Of a stretch of 64,000 nt of DNA, positions 29,701 to 64,000 are shown one piece after another (the first letter of the stretch is position 1; each line of letters opens with the position of its first letter). A program made the translations under genes and the position numbers. The notes below the pieces were generated by a model. That model was not told where the DNA came from. It searched no databases and saw only the letters and a program-made list of their open reading frames with translations. Location of the stretch: the NCBI RefSeq assembly GCF_001742305.1, contig NZ_MJAT01000022.1, positions 124,001 through 188,000 on the forward strand, read 5' to 3'. The DNA is from Desulfuribacillus stibiiarsenatis. Its GTDB lineage: Bacteria; Bacillota; Bacilli; Desulfuribacillales; Desulfuribacillaceae.

Positions 29701-30665
29701 TTCCAATCCAAGCGAAAAGTGTAACGGAAGAATCTACTTACAATTTTGAGAAAACTGAAGCTAGTTTCGTGAAAACTGGGTCAGATGCAATAACGTACAA
29801 TTCGATAATAAACGCAGATACAACTATTAAAAGTCAAAGTCGCAGCTCTCGTACAACAGCACTCGCACAGCCGCGTGTCTTAATCCCTGTATTCCCAGGA
29901 ACGAATTGCGAATATGATACGCATAAGGCGTTTGAGAAAGCTGGCGGACAAGTCGATACGATGATTATAAGGAATCTAACGTCTGTTGATATTGAGAATT
30001 CTATCGCAACCATTGTTGATAAAATCAAGCAAACACAAATTTTGATGCTGCCAGGTGGCTTTAGTGGTGGTGATGAACCAGACGGTTCTGGTAAATTTTA
30101 CGCTACGCTCTTTAGAAACCCAAGAATTAAAGAAGCTGTGATGGACCTATTGCAAAATCGTGATGGTCTTGTGCTGGGGATTTGTAACGGATTCCAAGCG
30201 TTGATTAAATTAGGGCTACTGCCATATGGTGAGATCCGAGATATGAATGAGAATTCCCCTACGTTAACCTTTAACACGATTGGTAGACATATTTCCACAA
30301 TGGTACAAACAAAGGTTGTATCCAATCAGTCACCATGGTTACGTAATGTTGAAATAGGCGAAATCCATTCAATTCCTGTTTCCCATGGGGAGGGACGTTT
30401 CTTTGCTACGGTAGAGGAGTTACAAAAGCTTATCGATGGGAAACAGGTGGCTACTCAATACGTAAATCAAATGGGTAATCCGACTATGCAAAGCCCTGCC
30501 AATCCTAATGGCTCCATCTATGCAATCGAAGGCATCACAAGCCCTGATGGTAGAATTTTTGGGAAAATGGGACATTCAGAGCGCATAGGAAATCACGTAG
30601 CCATCAATGTTCCGGGCAAAAAAGATCAGAGAATTTTTGAAGCTGGTATCTCATATTTCAAATAA
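26739..30665 (+). CDS. purL: phosphoribosylformylglycinamidine synthase, single-chain
   Basis: 1308 residues. It converts FGAR to FGAM with glutamine and ATP in purine synthesis. The N-terminal PurS-like part and two AIR-synthase-related halves carry the signatures H-N-H-P-T-E-I-E-P and G-G-K-D-S-M-S-G-T. The last about 260 residues are a class I glutamine amidotransferase domain (P-G-T-N-C-E-Y-D, nucleophile in G-I-C-N-G-F-Q, and H-G-E-G-R-F). Bacilli normally use three separate proteins, PurS, PurQ and PurL; this large fused form is the type known from Proteobacteria and some Clostridia. It stands alone, without other pur genes nearby. The ATG follows GGGGGGG. Confidence 0.95.
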   Translation: MTAVMGIQVRRIFVEKKPGFNVEAEALCRDFQQNLGILGLQSVRVVNRYDIQGINEEIYQQSRNTIFSEPPVDIVYDEQLHVQDPIRMFAVEFLPGQYDQRADSAAQCIQILTQSDRPIVTTAKVVLLSGDISDEEFNRIKQYYINPVESREATLDKPLTIELQTEQPSDVQVLDGFCHMDEQQMKEFMQRIGFAMNFEDLLFCQKYFRDTEKRDPTITELKVIDTYWSDHCRHTTFLTEIQEVTFDENENVVPMKAAYQRYLKAREIVYGEENRDVCLMDLAVIGMKELRKQGKLQDLDVSDEVNACSIVVDVDVEGEIQEWLVMFKNETHNHPTEIEPYGGAATCLGGAIRDPLSGRSYVYQAMRVTGSGDPRARIEDTIPGKLPQRKITTEAAAGYSGYGNQIGLATGHVAEVYDEGFVAKRMEIGAVMAAAPKENVVRIQPSKGDVVILAGGRTGRDGCGGATGSSKEHDEDSIFTCGAEVQKGNPPTERKLQRLFRNPKVSMMIKKCNDFGAGGVSVAIGELTDSLKVNLDVIPKKYEGLDGTELAISESQERMAVVVAAEDAERFIRFAQEENVEATVVAEVTDNRRLQMYWRGNAIVDLSRDFLDTNGVKQTTKVHVNGPQTDMDFLTQPSQHIRDELKSYPLESCETLRQAWIANLTDLNVAGQQGLVERFDSTIGAGTVLMPFGGKYQATPAEGMVAKIPVIGKETNTATIMTHGYNPKLASWSPFHGALYAVVEAVAKVVAIGGRYDSIRLTLQEYFEKLGTDASKWGKPFSALLGAYHAQEQFGIPAIGGKDSMSGTFKDLHVPPTLVAFAVDVVKADKVISPEFKQAGSQVVFIPSKFDGQSMIDFDNLKANFTKVTELIHSGKVLAAHTVKYGGIAEALTKMAFGNKIGFRFEPSKANAMTQSMEIGYGEEWFLPKYGSLVLELPSDINVQEALGDIDYIALGNTTSSQAIQVGDMTIMLDELYRLWQEPLQDIFPIQAKSVTEESTYNFEKTEASFVKTGSDAITYNSIINADTTIKSQSRSSRTTALAQPRVLIPVFPGTNCEYDTHKAFEKAGGQVDTMIIRNLTSVDIENSIATIVDKIKQTQILMLPGGFSGGDEPDGSGKFYATLFRNPRIKEAVMDLLQNRDGLVLGICNGFQALIKLGLLPYGEIRDMNENSPTLTFNTIGRHISTMVQTKVVSNQSPWLRNVEIGEIHSIPVSHGEGRFFATVEELQKLIDGKQVATQYVNQMGNPTMQSPANPNGSIYAIEGITSPDGRIFGKMGHSERIGNHVAINVPGKKDQRIFEAGISYFK

Positions 30666-30725
30666 TAGGTATAAAATATCCAGAAATATAGCACAATAGA
30701 GAATGTAAGTAATATATTTAGGTAA

Positions 30726-30742
30726 TGCATTCAAGGAATGCA
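30726..30742 (+). repeat. short perfect hairpin upstream of the cold-shock gene
   Basis: TGCATTC-AAG-GAATGCA, a 7-bp stem with a 3-base loop in the leader of the cold-shock gene, 8 bases before the AGGAGG site. The same GCATTC/GAATGC stem core recurs at 31107 and 32466. Confidence 0.6.
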
Positions 30743-30766
30743 AACATTTAGGAGGAATTTAAGAGT

Positions 30767-30964
30767 ATGCAAGGTACAGTAAAATGGTTTAATGCAAGTA
30801 AGGGGTTTGGATTTATCGAAACAGAAGGTGGAGAAGATGTATTCGTACATTTCTCAGCAATTCAAGGCGATGGATTTAAATCATTAGAAGAAGGTCAAAG
30901 AGTATCTTTTGAGGTTACTGAAGGAAACCGTGGCCCTCAAGCGACTAACGTTTCTGTAATGTAA
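30767..30964 (+). CDS. csp: cold-shock protein, CspA family
   Basis: 65 residues, one cold-shock domain. RNP1 (K-G-F-G-F-I) and RNP2 (V-F-V-H-F) are both intact. It is an RNA/ssDNA-binding chaperone of the cytoplasm. The ATG follows TAGGAGG, and a roughly 100-base leader with a short hairpin precedes it. A strong terminator follows. Confidence 0.97.
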
Positions 30965-30987
30965 TCGCATATCCTACCAACGAATAA

Positions 30988-31016
30988 AACCTCCACTCTT
31001 ATGTGGAGGTTTTTTG
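30988..31016 (+). terminator. intrinsic terminator of the cold-shock gene
   Basis: AACCTCCAC (30988-30996) pairs with GTGGAGGTT (31003-31011), followed by TTTTT. Confidence 0.95.
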
Positions 31017-54204: not shown

Positions 54205-55197
54205 ATGGGGATCCTTGTAATAGACGATTGTAAAGATTCGCTACAACTAATAAAAGCGTATCTAAAGGACTTTATGGAGGAAGAGATAGTTACTGCAGTA
54301 TCTGCAAGAGAAGGAATGGAGCTGCTATCTGATGAGATCGGACTTATCCTTCTTGATGTAGTTATGCCAGACAAGGACGGGATTACTGCTTGTAAAGAAA
54401 TAAAGACAATCGCTGACTATACGGATATTCCTATTCTCATTATCACTCAAAACAATGATTTGGAGACTTTAGAGAAGGCATTTCAGGCAGGTGCATCGGA
54501 CTTTATCAGGAAACCATTTCATAAACTGGAATTGCGCGCAAGGGTTTCTGCTTTTTTGAAGCTCAGTAGGGAAATGAAGCATCGCAAGCTCCGTGAGCAG
54601 GAACTCGTGAGTTTAAATCAGGAATTGTACGAGAAAAATGAATTATTAAAACAACTATCGATGATTGATGGTTTAACTGGCATAGCGAATCGAAGATATT
54701 TTAACGAGTGCTTAGACCGTGAATGGAAACTAGCAGTAAGAAATCATACTCCACTTTCTGTCGTTATATTTGATGTAGACCATTTCAAAGATTATAACGA
54801 TCAATATGGTCATCAAAGTGGCGATGAGGTGCTAAAGAATGTAGCTGCCGCCGCTGTAAATGTGATTAAACGACCGACAGATATTATCGCTCGATATGGT
54901 GGAGAAGAATTCGTGGTCATCCTACCTGAAACTACATGTGATGGTGGTTATCATGTGGCGGAGACGATACGAAAAGAAATAATAGGTTTGAACATTTGTC
55001 ATGAGAAATCCTCTGTCTGTGAGTCCTTGACAGTTAGTGTAGGAGTGGCCGAAATAGGCAAACACGGGGATACAATGGATTGTTTAATAGAGCGGGCAGA
55101 TAAAGCGTTATATCAAGCAAAACAGTTAGGGAGAAATCGAACGATAAGGCATAGCGATATTGAAAATGCAAAAGAATCCACGCAGGAAACCCTATGA
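54205..55197 (+). CDS. response regulator with GGDEF diguanylate cyclase domain
   Basis: 330 residues. Receiver (about 1-120) with acidic pair D-D, phosphorylation Asp51 and Lys in R-K-P, a coiled-coil linker (about 122-150), then GGDEF (about 155-315). The active motif is R-Y-G-G-E-E-F, and an inhibitory I-site R-P-T-D lies exactly five residues before it. So c-di-GMP synthesis on phosphorylation, with product feedback, is expected. It overlaps the next gene by 4 bases. Close paralogue of the protein at 59421. Confidence 0.94.
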   Translation: MGILVIDDCKDSLQLIKAYLKDFMEEEIVTAVSAREGMELLSDEIGLILLDVVMPDKDGITACKEIKTIADYTDIPILIITQNNDLETLEKAFQAGASDFIRKPFHKLELRARVSAFLKLSREMKHRKLREQELVSLNQELYEKNELLKQLSMIDGLTGIANRRYFNECLDREWKLAVRNHTPLSVVIFDVDHFKDYNDQYGHQSGDEVLKNVAAAAVNVIKRPTDIIARYGGEEFVVILPETTCDGGYHVAETIRKEIIGLNICHEKSSVCESLTVSVGVAEIGKHGDTMDCLIERADKALYQAKQLGRNRTIRHSDIENAKESTQETL

Positions 55198-56824: not shown

Positions 56825-59449
56825 ATGACAGAAATTCATATAGAACGATTGCACTCGTATCACTCGTTTGTATTTGAATTAGCAGCATCATTTATTAATA
56901 CTCCCCTACATAAAATGAATCAGGAAATAATGACGGCCATGGAGACCATTGGCCTACGAGCCAATGTCGAGCGAGTATATTTATATGAGTACGATGAGGA
57001 GAATACATTGGCGATTAACACCCATGAATGGTGTGCACCGAATGTAGCATCACGCATCCAAGTTGCTCGGGCAGTGCCTATGCAGATGATTGAAGAAGTC
57101 ATTGAATGCCACCGTTCTGGTAGAGTATTTCATATTGATAATGTTCAACAGTTACAAGAATCTGAATTGAAGAATTATCTCCTGCAGCATAATGTCTTTA
57201 CTCTGGTTGCTATACCGTTATTAGTAGACGGGAAATGCCTTGGAACGATTGGCTTTGAATCAGCGCAAAGTACTCGTCAATGGACGATGGCGGAGTTCGA
57301 ATTGCTAAAATTGTTCTCACATCTATTAACGAATGTAAAGGTTCGTCAGCAGACTGAAACCGCCTTGCTAGAAAGTAAGAACTATAATGATGTTTTATTT
57401 CATCATTCTCACGTCCCATCGGTAGTCATTGATTTAGAACATTATAGAATACTGGAATGTAATGATGCTGCGATTAAGATTTACGGACTCGATTCAAAAG
57501 AGCAGGCGCTTCACCAATCAATATTTATGTTCTCTGCAGACATTCAATACGATGGGAGGCAATCAAAAGAGGCAAGTAATGAATATATTCAAAAGGCTTT
57601 ACGTGAGGAATCTGCTTTTTTTGAATGGAAACATATCCGCCCCAATGGAGAGTCCTGGGATGCTGAGGTCCATTTGATTGCTTTCAAACATCAAAACAGA
57701 CAACTTTTAAAATATACTTTATTTGATATTACGGAAAGAATAAGAAGAGAACAATTGCTAGAAGTACGTTTGCGAATTGCAGAGTTTGCGACGAACCATA
57801 CACTAGACCAACTTTTGCAGAAAACGCTGGATGAAATTGAGCAAATTACCGAGAGTCAGATTGGTTTTTTTCACTTTTTAAATGAAGACCAAGTGACATT
57901 AGAGTTACAGATGTGGTCTACGAATACAATAGGATCGATGTGTGCAACCGAAGGACGAAAAGCCCACTATAATATAGGTGAAGCAGGAATATGGGTTGAG
58001 TGTATCCATCAACGTCAGCCTGTGGTTCATAATGATTATGATAGCGTACCGCATAAGAAAGGACTGCCAGACGGACATGCACCGATTGTAAGGCAACTTG
58101 TGGCACCAGTCATTCGAGGGAATCAAATAGTAGCGATTATAGGGGTTGGGAATAAACCCCGAGACTATACGTCTAGAGACGTCGAGTTGGTATCAGCTCT
58201 GGCCGACCTTGCATGGGAGACAGCAGCACGGAAACGCGCTGAAGAAGAGATGAAAGCGTTGCGCGACCAAGCATTACTGGCAACGAAAGCAAAATCTGAC
58301 TTTCTCGCCATGATGAGTCATGAGATTCGTACGCCAATGAATGTAATTATTGGTATGGCAGATTTATTAGCAGAAACTCCATTAAAGAAAGAGCAAAAGC
58401 GATATATCGATGTGTTCCGGCGTTCCGGAGAAGATTTGTTAAATATTATCAACGACATTCTAGACATTTCTAAGTTCGAAGCAGGACGACTTACTATTGA
58501 GAGAATCCCATTTAACTTGTCGCGATTGATTCAAGATGTTTCTGATTTATATATGCATCAAGCCATACAAAAAGAAATTCAGTATTCATCGCATATTCAC
58601 ATTGCTGAAGGTTTCTTTGCAGTAGGTGATCCAACCAGGATTCGCCAAATCATTGGGAATCTGCTGTCAAATGCTGTGAAATTCACAGAGTCCGGGAGCA
58701 TTCGATTGATAGCAGATTGCCTAATGGAAGACGATGGTCATTTGTGCTTAATTTGCCGAATAGAGGATTCAGGAATTGGTATTGCCACAGAAAAGCTACA
58801 AGAAATATTCGAACCTTTTTCACAGGCCGAAAGTTTTATCACACGTAGATTTGGTGGAACAGGACTTGGGTTAGCCATAGCTAGGCAGCTAGCTTTATTG
58901 ATGCAAGGTGATATTGCCGTTGTCAGTGAAGCTGGGAAAGGGAGTACTTTTGTATTAGAAGTGCGGATTGATGCATATGACTCGGAAAAGGATTATATTA
59001 CGAATTTATCCCATGGTAAACACAAGAAATCGATAGAAACCAATAATGGGAAGCCATTAAAAATCCTAATTGCGGAAGACTCGATTGACAACCAATTGTT
59101 GATGAAAGCATATTTAAAAAACCAAAATATTAAGGTGGAGTTTGTAGACAATGGAAGGTTGGCCGTTGAATCTTATCAAAACAATGAGTATGATCTTGTG
59201 ATAATGGATATTCAAATGCCTGAAATGGATGGCTATACAGCAACTTCAGAAATCCGTAAATGGGAACAAGTAAATCAGCGAAACGCGACCCCTGTTATTG
59301 CACTTACCGCCTTTGCACTTCAAGGAGACCGTGAACTTGCGATGCAAGCAGGATGTACTGAATATATGACCAAGCCAATCAAAAAACAAAAGATTGTGGA
59401 ATTATTAAAAAGGTATCGGGGTGAGGAAAACGAAGATACTAATCATTGA
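56825..59449 (+). CDS. cytoplasmic hybrid histidine kinase, GAF-PAS-GAF-HisKA-HATPase-REC
   Basis: About 874 residues, no membrane helix. First GAF (about 25-175), PAS (about 185-305: H-S-H-V-P-S-V-V-I-D), second GAF (about 315-460), HisKA with [10 protein letters not shown], HATPase with N-L-L-S-N-A, D-S-G-I-G-I and G-T-G-L-G-L, and a C-terminal receiver with D-L-V-I-M-D-I-Q-M-P. The ATG at 56825 is preferred because AAAGGGG precedes it; the in-frame ATG at 56762 has none. Likely senses an intracellular cue and feeds the REC-GGDEF and REC-PP2C neighbours. Confidence 0.92.
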   Translation: MTEIHIERLHSYHSFVFELAASFINTPLHKMNQEIMTAMETIGLRANVERVYLYEYDEENTLAINTHEWCAPNVASRIQVARAVPMQMIEEVIECHRSGRVFHIDNVQQLQESELKNYLLQHNVFTLVAIPLLVDGKCLGTIGFESAQSTRQWTMAEFELLKLFSHLLTNVKVRQQTETALLESKNYNDVLFHHSHVPSVVIDLEHYRILECNDAAIKIYGLDSKEQALHQSIFMFSADIQYDGRQSKEASNEYIQKALREESAFFEWKHIRPNGESWDAEVHLIAFKHQNRQLLKYTLFDITERIRREQLLEVRLRIAEFATNHTLDQLLQKTLDEIEQITESQIGFFHFLNEDQVTLELQMWSTNTIGSMCATEGRKAHYNIGEAGIWVECIHQRQPVVHNDYDSVPHKKGLPDGHAPIVRQLVAPVIRGNQIVAIIGVGNKPRDYTSRDVELVSALADLAWETAARKRAEEEMKALRDQALLATKAKSDFLAMMSHEIRTPMNVIIGMADLLAETPLKKEQKRYIDVFRRSGEDLLNIINDILDISKFEAGRLTIERIPFNLSRLIQDVSDLYMHQAIQKEIQYSSHIHIAEGFFAVGDPTRIRQIIGNLLSNAVKFTESGSIRLIADCLMEDDGHLCLICRIEDSGIGIATEKLQEIFEPFSQAESFITRRFGGTGLGLAIARQLALLMQGDIAVVSEAGKGSTFVLEVRIDAYDSEKDYITNLSHGKHKKSIETNNGKPLKILIAEDSIDNQLLMKAYLKNQNIKVEFVDNGRLAVESYQNNEYDLVIMDIQMPEMDGYTATSEIRKWEQVNQRNATPVIALTAFALQGDRELAMQAGCTEYMTKPIKKQKIVELLKRYRGEENEDTNH

Positions 59450-60434
59450 CGATTGTCTGGATACCCAAAGATTGCTTAAGAAATACATTAGTGATTATTT
59501 GGATGCAGAAGTAGTGGCAGCAGTTTCGGCAGATCAAGGAATATCGGTTCTTACGGACGACGTGGATTTAATTCTACTAGATATTCTCATGCCAGAAAAA
59601 GACGGTATCTGTGCTTGCCGGGAAATTAAAAGCAAGGAAGCATTTCGGGATATACCAATTGTAATTGTAACTCAATATGACAATCAGGAGATTTTTAGAG
59701 ATGCTTTTATAGCGGGTGCATCAGATTTTATTAAAAAACCGTTTAATAAAATTGAGTTATGTGCTAGGGTGGGCTCACTCTTACAACTGAGCGCGGAAAT
59801 GAAAAAAAGAAAAGTTAGAGAAAAAGAGTTACAAGAGCTTAATGCACAGCTTCAAGATCGTAATGAAACCTTAAAAAAGCTCTCCATGATTGATGGACTA
59901 ACAGGAATTGCTAACCGAAGGTACTTAGAAGAGTACTTAGAGCGTGAATGGCGCTATGCCGTGCGAAACAAAGGACAACTATCCCTTGTAATGTTTGATA
60001 TTGATTATTTCAAGTTATATAACGATTACTATGGTCATCAGTGTGGCGATGATACACTAAAAGCGATAGCGCAAACAGTGGAGAAAATCTTAAAGAGACC
60101 TACGGATATGGTAGCACGTTACGGTGGAGAAGAATTCGTTGTCATTCTACCAGCAACTGCCATTCATGGGGCGATGGAAATTGCGAAACAAATTCGTGGT
60201 TGTGTCGAGGGGCTTCAAATCTGTCACGAAAAGTCAGCCATCTCTGACTATGTAACGATTAGTCTCGGGGTTACGACAATACATAATTATACTAGTGATT
60301 CGACCACGACACTTATCGAACATGCAGACAATGCTTTGTACAAGGCCAAAAATAGTGGTAGAAATAAAGTTGTGCAGTATGAAGAGGTTATAGAGAACTG
60401 TAGCTTTATTAACAATACTTGTAGACTCTCGTAG
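59421..60434 (+). CDS. response regulator with GGDEF diguanylate cyclase domain
   Basis: 337 residues, GTG start inside the end of the hybrid kinase gene (29-base overlap). Receiver (about 4-123, Asp54), linker helix, GGDEF (about 155-320) with R-Y-G-G-E-E-F and I-site R-P-T-D five residues before it. Very similar to the protein at 54205 over its whole length, including the phrase S-M-I-D-G-L-T-G-I-A-N-R-R-Y. The two flank the phosphatase and the hybrid kinase, which points to local duplication. Expected to make c-di-GMP in response to phosphorylation. Confidence 0.94.
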   Translation: MRKTKILIIDDCLDTQRLLKKYISDYLDAEVVAAVSADQGISVLTDDVDLILLDILMPEKDGICACREIKSKEAFRDIPIVIVTQYDNQEIFRDAFIAGASDFIKKPFNKIELCARVGSLLQLSAEMKKRKVREKELQELNAQLQDRNETLKKLSMIDGLTGIANRRYLEEYLEREWRYAVRNKGQLSLVMFDIDYFKLYNDYYGHQCGDDTLKAIAQTVEKILKRPTDMVARYGGEEFVVILPATAIHGAMEIAKQIRGCVEGLQICHEKSAISDYVTISLGVTTIHNYTSDSTTTLIEHADNALYKAKNSGRNKVVQYEEVIENCSFINNTCRLS

Positions 60435-60484: not shown

Positions 60485-60513
60485 TTGCAAATGACCTAGT
60501 TTAACTTTATAAT
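60485..60513 (+). promoter_or_regulatory. promoter in front of the binding-protein/hybrid-kinase pair
   Basis: TTGCAA (60485-60490), 17-base spacer, TATAAT (60508-60513). It starts a leader of about 190 bases before the gene at 60713. Confidence 0.6.
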
Positions 60514-60519
60514 ACGAGT

Positions 60520-60644
60520 GGAAAGCAATTTCTAAGAATATTCGTTAAAGCATAAGGGAGCTAAGATAAACAATTCTAACATGGACGCCTGAATTGTTTG
60601 GAGCAAGTGGCGTAACCGACCAGTTATTTCAACTGGTCTTTTTT
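60520..60644 (+). ncRNA. structured leader with intrinsic terminator, candidate attenuator or small RNA
   Basis: Between the promoter at 60485 and the gene at 60713, about 125 bases can fold. AAACAATTC (60578-60586 region) pairs with GAATTGTTT about 14 bases later, and GACCAGTT (60618-60625) pairs with AACTGGTC (60631-60638), followed by a T run. Promoter, folded domain and terminator before a coding region are the hallmarks of a riboswitch or attenuator. I could not match it to a known riboswitch consensus; a free-standing small RNA, or simply the terminator of the upstream operon, are alternatives. Confidence 0.4.
60618..60644 (+). terminator. intrinsic terminator upstream of 60713
   Basis: An 8-bp perfect stem (60618-60625 with 60631-60638) over a 5-base loop, then TTTTTT. 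Confidence 0.9.
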
Positions 60645-60712
60645 ATACGCAAAAGTTGATTTTCCTTTGAAATATTATTTGAGCAACAAGTATTGAGATT
60701 GTAGGTGTTCAC

Positions 60713-61858
60713 GTGGCGAGAATCATAACAACAAAAAGTATTACCTCGGTGATTATAGTATGTTTGCTATTAGTAGTCCTGTTGTGGCTGAGAACGGAAT
60801 CGCTCCAGACGAAAACAATCATAATTATAACGAAAGACCAAGAGAATACAGCTAGCCTTAATCCATCCCGTTTAATTGTAGCGGCTGAATTAGCTTTAGC
60901 TGATTATCAAAAACAAAAACAACGATATCCTATCACCCATCAATATATTACTTATACGGGCGAAGAACAGGAAGGATATGATAAGGCAAGGCAGTATCTG
61001 AAAGAAAACAAAAGCGTGGTTGCAATCGTAGGAGATTTTAATAGTGCAGGAACAAAGTTACTCGCAGAGCTTGCGATGGAATTTGAAATTCCTCATATAT
61101 CATTTTTCTCAACAGATGAGACGATATTTCATGAAAAGTCATGGAGTTTTTCCATTCGAAATCGAACGGCACATGAGATGGATACGATGGTGCAGCTCAT
61201 CAACAAACATCTACAAGTAGAACAAGTGACAATCCTTTCTAGCGAAACGTCTAATTTAATCCAAAGAGCAGAAGAACTGGAACTGGCTTTGAGTTCTATA
61301 GGAATCAAAGCACAAGAGATACTAACGGTAGAATCAGGGCAAATAGATTTTAGTAACGAAATTACCCGGATTAAGGGGCAACTGACGGGCAAGGCCGTCG
61401 TTATTTTTCTAGGGTCGCAACAACTTGAACACTTTTTGCAACAATGTCAAATGGCAGAGATAACACTTCCGATTATTTCTACAGGAGTAGTTCTGCATCC
61501 AGATATTCTTCATGAGTTTGTTGGAATAAAGGGCAATGTATATTCTGTAGTGCCAAAAATTTATCTAGATTATGCAGAGCGAATAGATTTAGTAACACTT
61601 ATGGAGCGTTATAAGATAGCCATAGGTAATCATCGATTGGACGCCTCTGGGCTGTGGATTTATGATGGATTTCAAGTGATGTACGAAACGATGAACGCGT
61701 CTAAAAATAGCTCTCAATTAAGAAATCTCTTGCGTGACTATAATAAAAGGCATGTAAGTTATATGATATCATTTGATGAACATGGTCTAATCAAAGATAG
61801 TGGTTTCATCCCCGTAACCATTCAGGGCAGCCGGTTTATAGAGGTGGAGATTCCGTAA
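60713..61858 (+). CDS. membrane-anchored periplasmic-binding-protein-like receptor
   Basis: 381 residues, GTG start. An N-terminal membrane helix (about 9-27) is followed by a type 1 periplasmic-binding fold (about 35-375) like the Leu/Ile/Val-binding receptors, with the hallmark [12 protein letters not shown] near residue 105. There is no lipobox and no transporter gene beside it. Its stop overlaps the ATG of a membrane hybrid kinase, so it probably serves as the ligand-sensing partner of that kinase. The ligand is unknown (amino-acid-like by family). Confidence 0.82.
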
Positions 61859-64000
61859 TGTTCAATAAAAATTCTAGAATAGTTTTCAATAGATTACAAT
61901 GGCGGCTATTCCGGCAGTTCACAATTGCGGGATTAGTTCTGATTGTCTTGTTAGCAGGTCTAATATACAAGTACGTGACAGAAACAACCATTGAGTTATA
62001 CCAAGCGAACGCAAGGATGGTACTAGAACGTTACGAAATAACAGCTAGGTTATTCTTGAAGAGAGAAATGGAGATATTAACGCTACATTATAAGCTGCTA
62101 GGTTATGAGCAAAGTGATAAAGTTCTAGAAAGCATCAAGGATAATCCTAAATACTTAGAATCATATATTATGAACGCAGAGGGTTTCATTACCCATGCGA
62201 CTGTTGATAGGATGATAGGATATCAATACAAAGGTAAAGAAATCTTTAAAGTAGCGAGGAATGCAAATCAGCCATTCCCGTTGATAAGATTCCATCCCTT
62301 TGAGCAAAGATTACTTATCAATCTTGTCATTCCGACCTTTAACGATCGTAGGCAGTTAACTCAGATTGCAGTACATGAACTAGATCCAATTTGGTTAGAA
62401 GAACGCTTAGAATTTGAGTATCAAGCAAGTGATGGAGAAATTCATCTAGTAAATACAAATGGAATTATCTATTTAACGCTGCCCAAGAATGATTCAAAAA
62501 AACTGAATGCATTTGGAATTGCTACGTCCATCTTTGACTATGGATTTACGCTGGAACATTTAGAACAAAACCAGAGTGGACTGAATGATTTTATTAGTGA
62601 TAACCATTTAATTGTTTATAAAAATATAGATTCTGATTTAGGATTTGTTGTCAATCGCGTCTCATTAGATACAATTAGTGAGCAATTGAGAAGTATCTAT
62701 GTCATCATGGTTAAAGGTGCCCTTGTTGGAATGCTTTTTTTCATATTTTACGGCTTTTATGTAGCTAGGCGAACCGTGAAACCAATACGTGAGTTATCTG
62801 TTCAATTGAAGGAAGCACTGAAAGGTGAAAAAATGACCGTCATTTACGATCAACAATCGGAGCTTTCAATCATTGGTGACGCTTTTAATCAAGCTTGGGA
62901 AGATAATAAAATCATGAATCAGCAGTTAGTAAAAGAGAGAGAAACAGCAAAGCGTGAAAAGCAAAAAGCTGAAGAAGCAAATGCTGCGAAAAGCAGGTTT
63001 TTAGCTACAATGAGTCACGAAATACGAACCCCAATGAACGCTATTATTGGTATGACGGATGTATTAGACGAACTAGCCAACACACAAGAACAAAGAAATT
63101 ATATTCGTATATTGAAGAAAAATGGAGAGCATCTATTAAAAATTATTAACGCAGTCCTCGATTTAGCTAAAATAGAAGCAGGAGAAATAAAGCTGTCTAT
63201 GAGTGCAGTTAATGTTTCGGAAATGGTATATGAAGTAGGGGACACCTATAGCTATATAGCAGATCAAAAGGGTTTGCAACTTACGGTAGATATTAACTTA
63301 GATAAAGAAATGAAATGCCTTGCTTGGATTGATGAAGATAAAGTGCGTCAAGTACTGGTTAACCTGATTGGTAATGCTATTAAGTATACGGAAAAAGGTA
63401 GCATTAATTTAAAATTAGAATGTGATCAGCGCTCTCTTCGATTGATTGTAGAAGACACGGGGATTGGACTGTCACAAGATAAGGTAGAAACTATCTTTAA
63501 CGAATTTATTCAGCTAGATACTTCGACGACCCGCAGTTATGGTGGAACTGGTTTAGGGTTGACTATATCCAAGAAACTGGTAGAGATTATGGGGGGTCAA
63601 ATTTGGGTTGAAAGTCAAGAAGGAATTGGCAGTAAATTTATGGTTCAAATACCGTACAAACCAGTTACTGAATCCTACGACTTAGAAGAAGTGAACAATA
63701 TTGACAAAGCTACTGAAACACTTTCTTGGCGTCATGGGGATAAAACAGAGGCTAACGCGAAAAGAATTCTACTAGTAGATGATGCAGTCGATAATCGATT
63801 GTTAATCAAAGCATATCTTAAAAATCTTCCATACCATATTGAAGAAGCAACAAATGGTATAGAAGCCTATGAGAAATTTGTAGAGGGAGACTTTGACTTG
63901 GTACTCATGGATATTCAAATGCCATTATTGGATGGATATCAAGCAACTTTGCAAATAAGAAAGTGGGAGCAAGAAAATAACAAAGTCGCGACTCCAATCA
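61858..64000 (+). CDS. membrane hybrid histidine kinase, 3' end outside the window
   Basis: At least 714 residues; the frame is open to the end of the window. Membrane helix (about 19-40), an extracytoplasmic sensor of about 240 residues, a second helix (about 283-305), a HAMP-like linker and a coiled coil. Then come HisKA with [10 protein letters not shown], HATPase (N-L-I-G-N-A, D-T-G-I-G-L, G-T-G-L-G-L), and a receiver with [10 protein letters not shown] near the window edge. The ATG overlaps the preceding stop (TAATG). It is likely part of the same sensory unit as the binding protein, with a receiver closely like that of the kinase at 56825. Confidence 0.93.

Follow-up and report, generated by a model that had tools for sequence, protein, structure and literature searches.

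The leader in front of the binding-protein gene near the end of the window (the whole 64-kb stretch of DNA that was analysed) is, judged by its sequence, a recognisable switch of the c-di-GMP-II class and a fresh example of an established type. We consider it very likely that this riboswitch controls transcription termination and is an ON switch, so that the downstream sensor genes are most likely transcribed only when c-di-GMP is present. The window switch is ordinary in type and informative in place; its interest is the circuit, in which a probable ON switch for c-di-GMP lies between cyclase and receptor genes.

The Rfam search that an earlier note on this DNA had proposed gave c-di-GMP-II (RF01786) at 60547-60630 on the + strand, a covariance-model match over positions 1-84 of the 84 in the model. 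Its score of 53.7 bits exceeds the family's cut-off of 53.5 by a margin of 0.2 bit, and its E-value is 4.8e-9 for both strands of the 64 kb and 4227 families, far beyond chance, or 3e-11 when a 401-base stretch is searched. RF01786 is the sole family to pass its own cut-off in the window. A separate match at 30585-31016 (+), to the cspA thermoregulator RNA family with 61.3 bits against a cut-off of 78, is probably a cold-shock gene with its leader.

The leader was aligned in a set of 36 members, made up of the window, the second copy in the same genome, four copies from a family relative and 30 other RF01786 loci. In this set, which includes the window, 23 columns are kept by at least 90% of the sequences; the window agrees at every one of them, and the conserved positions that it carries include the UGG in the loop, GAG and AACCG, among others. 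Also conserved are a U of the loop and, within AACCG, both A and the G; these presumably correspond to the residues that contact the ligand in the solved class II structure. The c-di-GMP-I class (GEMM, RF01051) shares its ligand with class II and has an unrelated fold; it has no match in the window, at the cut-off or at E 0.05, and a GEMM identity was rejected. The earlier note had compared the leader with GEMM only. It was right that GEMM does not fit and right in its guess at the ligand, since family membership supports the binding of c-di-GMP by this RNA, but class II, which does fit, had not been considered. The two motifs that it singled out are at home in c-di-GMP-II, GGAC-GC being the pseudoknot loop and TAACCG the conserved AACCG.

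The first hairpin of the leader is P3 (60568-60599, +), in which 60568-60575 pairs with 60592-60599. Its loop holds the 5′ strand of a pseudoknot, ACGCC (60585-60589, +), and the 3′ strand, GGCGU (60609-60613, +), follows P2. The Rfam structure line of RF01786 does not include this pseudoknot, which is perfect in the window. Across the 36 members, standard pairs fill 180 of 180 cells, 24 of them with double changes; four of the five pairs change on both sides, and the covariation score was reached by 0 of 500 shuffles. In controls with the strands slid out of register, 7-58% of cells were paired. Three of the five pairs in the window are not the commonest at their position, and all remain paired. 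Because the pseudoknot lies outside the Rfam structure line, it provides independent support for the assignment, and the narrow score of 53.7 bits gives no cause for concern.

Most of the non-standard pairs of the window aptamer sit in P1, whose 5′ strand (60547-60557, +) is weak. Five of its 11 model pairs are non-standard, the free duplex has an energy of -2.3 kcal/mol, and the only firm pairs are the inner two G-C pairs, 60556-60621 and 60557-60620. A score at the cut-off together with a weak P1 could be taken to indicate a c-di-GMP-II relic that no longer switches, or a variant that senses another cyclic dinucleotide; the unrelated class I has variants with another ligand, cyclic AMP-GMP, according to PMC9495176. 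We regard this as very unlikely, however, because every column kept by at least 90% of members is intact, the pseudoknot has been preserved through three double changes and the neighbours are c-di-GMP signalling genes. P1 is poorly kept across the class too (62% of cells paired), and weak P1 duplexes also occur in several other copies of the two genomes.

The promoter, folded leader, intrinsic terminator and GTG start described in the earlier note were all recovered in the positions it had given them. The predicted promoter, TTGCAA-17-TATAAT, spans 60485-60513 (+), with TTGCAA at 60485-60490 and TATAAT at 60508-60513. Taken alone, the promoter match in the window is not above chance (16 found in the region vs 21.6 expected). 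In the riboswitch class as a whole there is an enrichment, with a match to 10 of the 12 bases at most 100 nt upstream of the aptamer in 26 of 75 members vs 72 of 1500 shuffles. The same hexamers stand in locus L040 of the family relative (G001), in which TTGCAA-18-TATAAT lies 31 nt before the aptamer vs 33 nt in the window. The intrinsic terminator occupies 60618-60644 (+), its stem (60618-60638) having eight pairs and a loop of five and being followed by TTTTTTATAC with a tract of six T; the GTG start is at 60713, 68 nt past the terminator. Thermodynamic folding of 60510-60720 gave a stability that is not unusual (z -0.63), and folding energy was dropped as evidence for the leader.

A search of the stretch from the end of the upstream gene (60434) to 60618 gave no terminator-like site, and read-through from the upstream operon may thus be gated by the switch as well. 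The same observation fits the idea that the stem is only that operon's terminator, and the RNA of about 125 nt that a terminated leader would give fits an independent sRNA; against both stand the covariance-model match, the covariation of the pseudoknot, the promoter in front and the conserved genes behind it in the relative, and we give these two ideas almost no weight. The sRNA alternative in the earlier note is thus not needed, although a short terminated RNA is to be expected at low c-di-GMP.

The mechanism that we favour, an ON switch acting on termination, follows from how the terminator and the aptamer share sequence. The 5′ arm of the terminator, 60618-60625, coincides with model positions 72-79 of the aptamer: position 72, the conserved G of AACCG, is its first base, and further along, in the 3′ strand of P1, it holds the 3′ bases of both firm pairs (positions 74 and 75). 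A bound aptamer and a complete terminator should therefore exclude each other. The arrangement is common in the class, in which the 5′ arm of the terminator overlaps the 3′ end of the aptamer in 54 of 76 members vs 14 of 228 shuffled leaders; among the remaining members the terminator lies elsewhere in 10 and none was present by the criteria used in 12. This count was enlarged from the set of 36, with a stricter energy limit; in the smaller set the terminator overlapped in 28, was elsewhere in six and was absent in two. Conditional read-through of a terminator by a riboswitch, as the earlier note had proposed, is supported by this overlap and by the RF01786 match.

In Clostridioides difficile, PMC6200980 describes all four class II switches as raising downstream transcripts upon a rise in c-di-GMP, and c-di-GMP-I switches as OFF. 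Taken with the overlap, the class II behaviour makes ON by antitermination the best reading, and the direction of switching in the window is predicted accordingly from this comparison. RNA polymerase would start near 60520, or come in from the upstream operon, and the aptamer at 60547-60630 would fold with P2, P3 and the five-pair pseudoknot. With c-di-GMP bound, 60618-60621 (the G of AACCG and the CC of P1) would be held in the aptamer, which would block up to four of the eight terminator pairs and permit read-through into the genes for the binding protein and the hybrid kinase. If no ligand is bound, the stem at 60618-60638 would form and transcription would stop.

The same aptamer could have another sign or output, with binding promoting termination (OFF) or acting on translation from the GTG. 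Two observations would suit such an arrangement: c-di-GMP-I switches are OFF in C. difficile (PMC6200980), and P2 and P3 can coexist with the terminator in a nested model (-24.0 kcal/mol). However, the terminator arm, which has the G of AACCG as its first base, competes for both firm P1 pairs, class II is uniformly ON in C. difficile (PMC6200980), and the start codon is well outside the aptamer; we therefore hold an OFF or translational switch to be improbable, although less so than a relic or variant. The energies also speak against the ON switch acting on termination. The enforced aptamer with inner P1 has -11.1 vs -28.4 kcal/mol for the terminator state, numbers that exclude the energies of pseudoknot and ligand, and a free duplex of the two pseudoknot strands has -6.7 kcal/mol. 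Nested energies thus favour the terminator strongly, so switching would depend on the energy of ligand and pseudoknot.

On the upstream side, the genes on the same strand are, in order, an anti-sigma-type ATPase, STAS, REC-GGDEF, REC-PAS-SpoIIE phosphatase, hybrid GAF/PAS kinase and a second REC-GGDEF that ends at 60434. Both REC-GGDEF proteins (54205-55197 and 59421-60434, +) have GGEEF with RxxD before it and are likely diguanylate cyclases, and we infer that c-di-GMP from these neighbours is the usual input of the switch. On the downstream side, the first regulated gene (60713-61858, +) encodes a periplasmic binding protein of the ANF_receptor/Peripla_BP_6 type, and the second (61858-64000, +) a hybrid histidine kinase of 766 aa that runs past the window (L006:1859-4159) and is followed by a LysR gene on the opposite strand. 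No transporter genes are found directly beside the binding-protein gene, and the binding protein is therefore probably the sensor partner of the kinase. We take the LuxPQ-type layout to be a periplasmic binding protein gene beside a hybrid kinase gene, with no adjoining transporter genes. The resemblance of the window genes to LuxPQ is one of gene layout; the one solved chain matched by the window binding protein is 3ip5, an amino-acid binding protein (E 2.7e-4).

In a search of 398 class genomes, the binding protein had matches in 38, the window's own included. Apart from the window's own, the only close match (42% identical) is in G001, which is very probably Desulfuribacillus alkaliarsenatis AHT28; the other 36 genomes have distant matches of 20-29% identity. 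The database taxonomy places G001 in the family of the window genome but in another genus; it is the only family relative compared. Its receptor operon consists of a riboswitch (58.2 bits), REC, Amphi-Trp, the binding protein, a hybrid kinase with Hpt (35% identical to that of the window), REC-GGDEF and HD-GYP, with TTGCAA-18-TATAAT in front and a terminator that has the same aptamer overlap. The locus that corresponds to the window locus lies elsewhere in G001, between argS and a LysR gene, and there a switch directly precedes a cyclase pair that corresponds to the two of the window, at 54% and 52% identity. This switch, at L072:2266-2347 (G001:C29:106265-106346) before two REC-GGDEF genes, is c-di-GMP-II-like with 37.9 bits, which is under the Rfam cut-off; its pseudoknot is fully paired and its terminator starts inside the conserved AACCG. 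It is possible that it is a positive-feedback switch on the cyclases.

Conservation of the leader, another check named in the earlier note, thus extends to two orthologous loci of the one family relative compared, both of which carry the same leader type. No leftover switch was found at E 0.05 in the window from argS to its first cyclase, the place at which the relative has one. In both genomes, then, switches guard the cyclase and receptor machinery, at rearranged places. At the DNA level, the sole match in 40 other genomes was 33 nt on G001 contig 31; it lies inside the coding sequence of a glycogen-type cluster (labels by eye), was attributed to chance and was rejected as conservation. Scans of genome contigs for named relatives by protein gave no relative confirmed by tblastn.

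We tentatively suggest a circuit for the window locus, one that is possible rather than probable. c-di-GMP made by the cyclases would open the switch, which would also gate read-through from the cyclase operon; the receptor would be made only once c-di-GMP is up, and the kinase would act back on the REC-GGDEF cyclases. This would amount to a feed-forward gate at the RNA level within a signalling island, and to a self-reinforcing or bistable circuit. If this is true, G001 wires the same loop otherwise, with one switch before the cyclase pair and another before the receptor operon. Control of such genes by this riboswitch class is already known. In the library searched, no paper joins Desulfuribacillus with a riboswitch, and none joins a c-di-GMP riboswitch, positive feedback and a diguanylate cyclase gene. 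The analysis settles the candidate of the earlier note and shows c-di-GMP-II switches that guard both the making and the sensing of c-di-GMP in the sparsely sampled Desulfuribacillaceae. Its addition is two concrete loci, orthologous but rewired, that would allow a test of positive feedback through an RNA switch.

RF01786 matches occur in 87 of the 398 class genomes, 65 over the cut-off. A motif census of the first gene after 76 switches gave pilin in 11, GGDEF in 6, HD-GYP in 6, EAL in 4, T2SSE ATPase in 1 and the present binding protein in 1, one gene falling under two motifs. With 48 first genes showing no motif at all, and with 0 for the chemotaxis-receptor motif although such sequences are visible by eye, the census is an undercount. 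L072 is the only match under the cut-off that it included, and one tandem copy that exceeds the cut-off (G037:C11:13087) was omitted. Pilin is the most frequent motif-defined first gene of the class (11 of 76), and a switch precedes a type IV pilin gene in both genomes. In the window genome this is its second c-di-GMP-II switch, L007:5017-5100 (G000:C39:93516-93599; 59.1 bits), which is of the same class as the window switch and has the same terminator overlap but precedes a type IV pilin gene. Cdi-2-4, upstream of pilA1 in C. difficile, likewise has in common with the window switch an 84-position aptamer, the pseudoknot, the conserved AACCG and a predicted ON direction; unlike Cdi-2-4, the window switch has the genes of a binding protein and a hybrid kinase as its targets rather than a pilin or adhesin, and its P1 is weak.

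Two further switches stand before pilus genes. The window genome also carries a c-di-GMP-I riboswitch, L008:4995-5082 (G000:C6:63994-64081; 77.3 bits), the only RF01051 copy found in that genome and located on a different contig from the window, which precedes a small ORF and a prepilin-peptidase/Tad-like pilus cluster (labels by eye). In G001, a c-di-GMP-II switch at L071:1554-1637 precedes a pilus ATPase with a c-di-GMP-binding MshEN domain, such that one machine would be controlled by the same messenger at both the RNA and the protein level.
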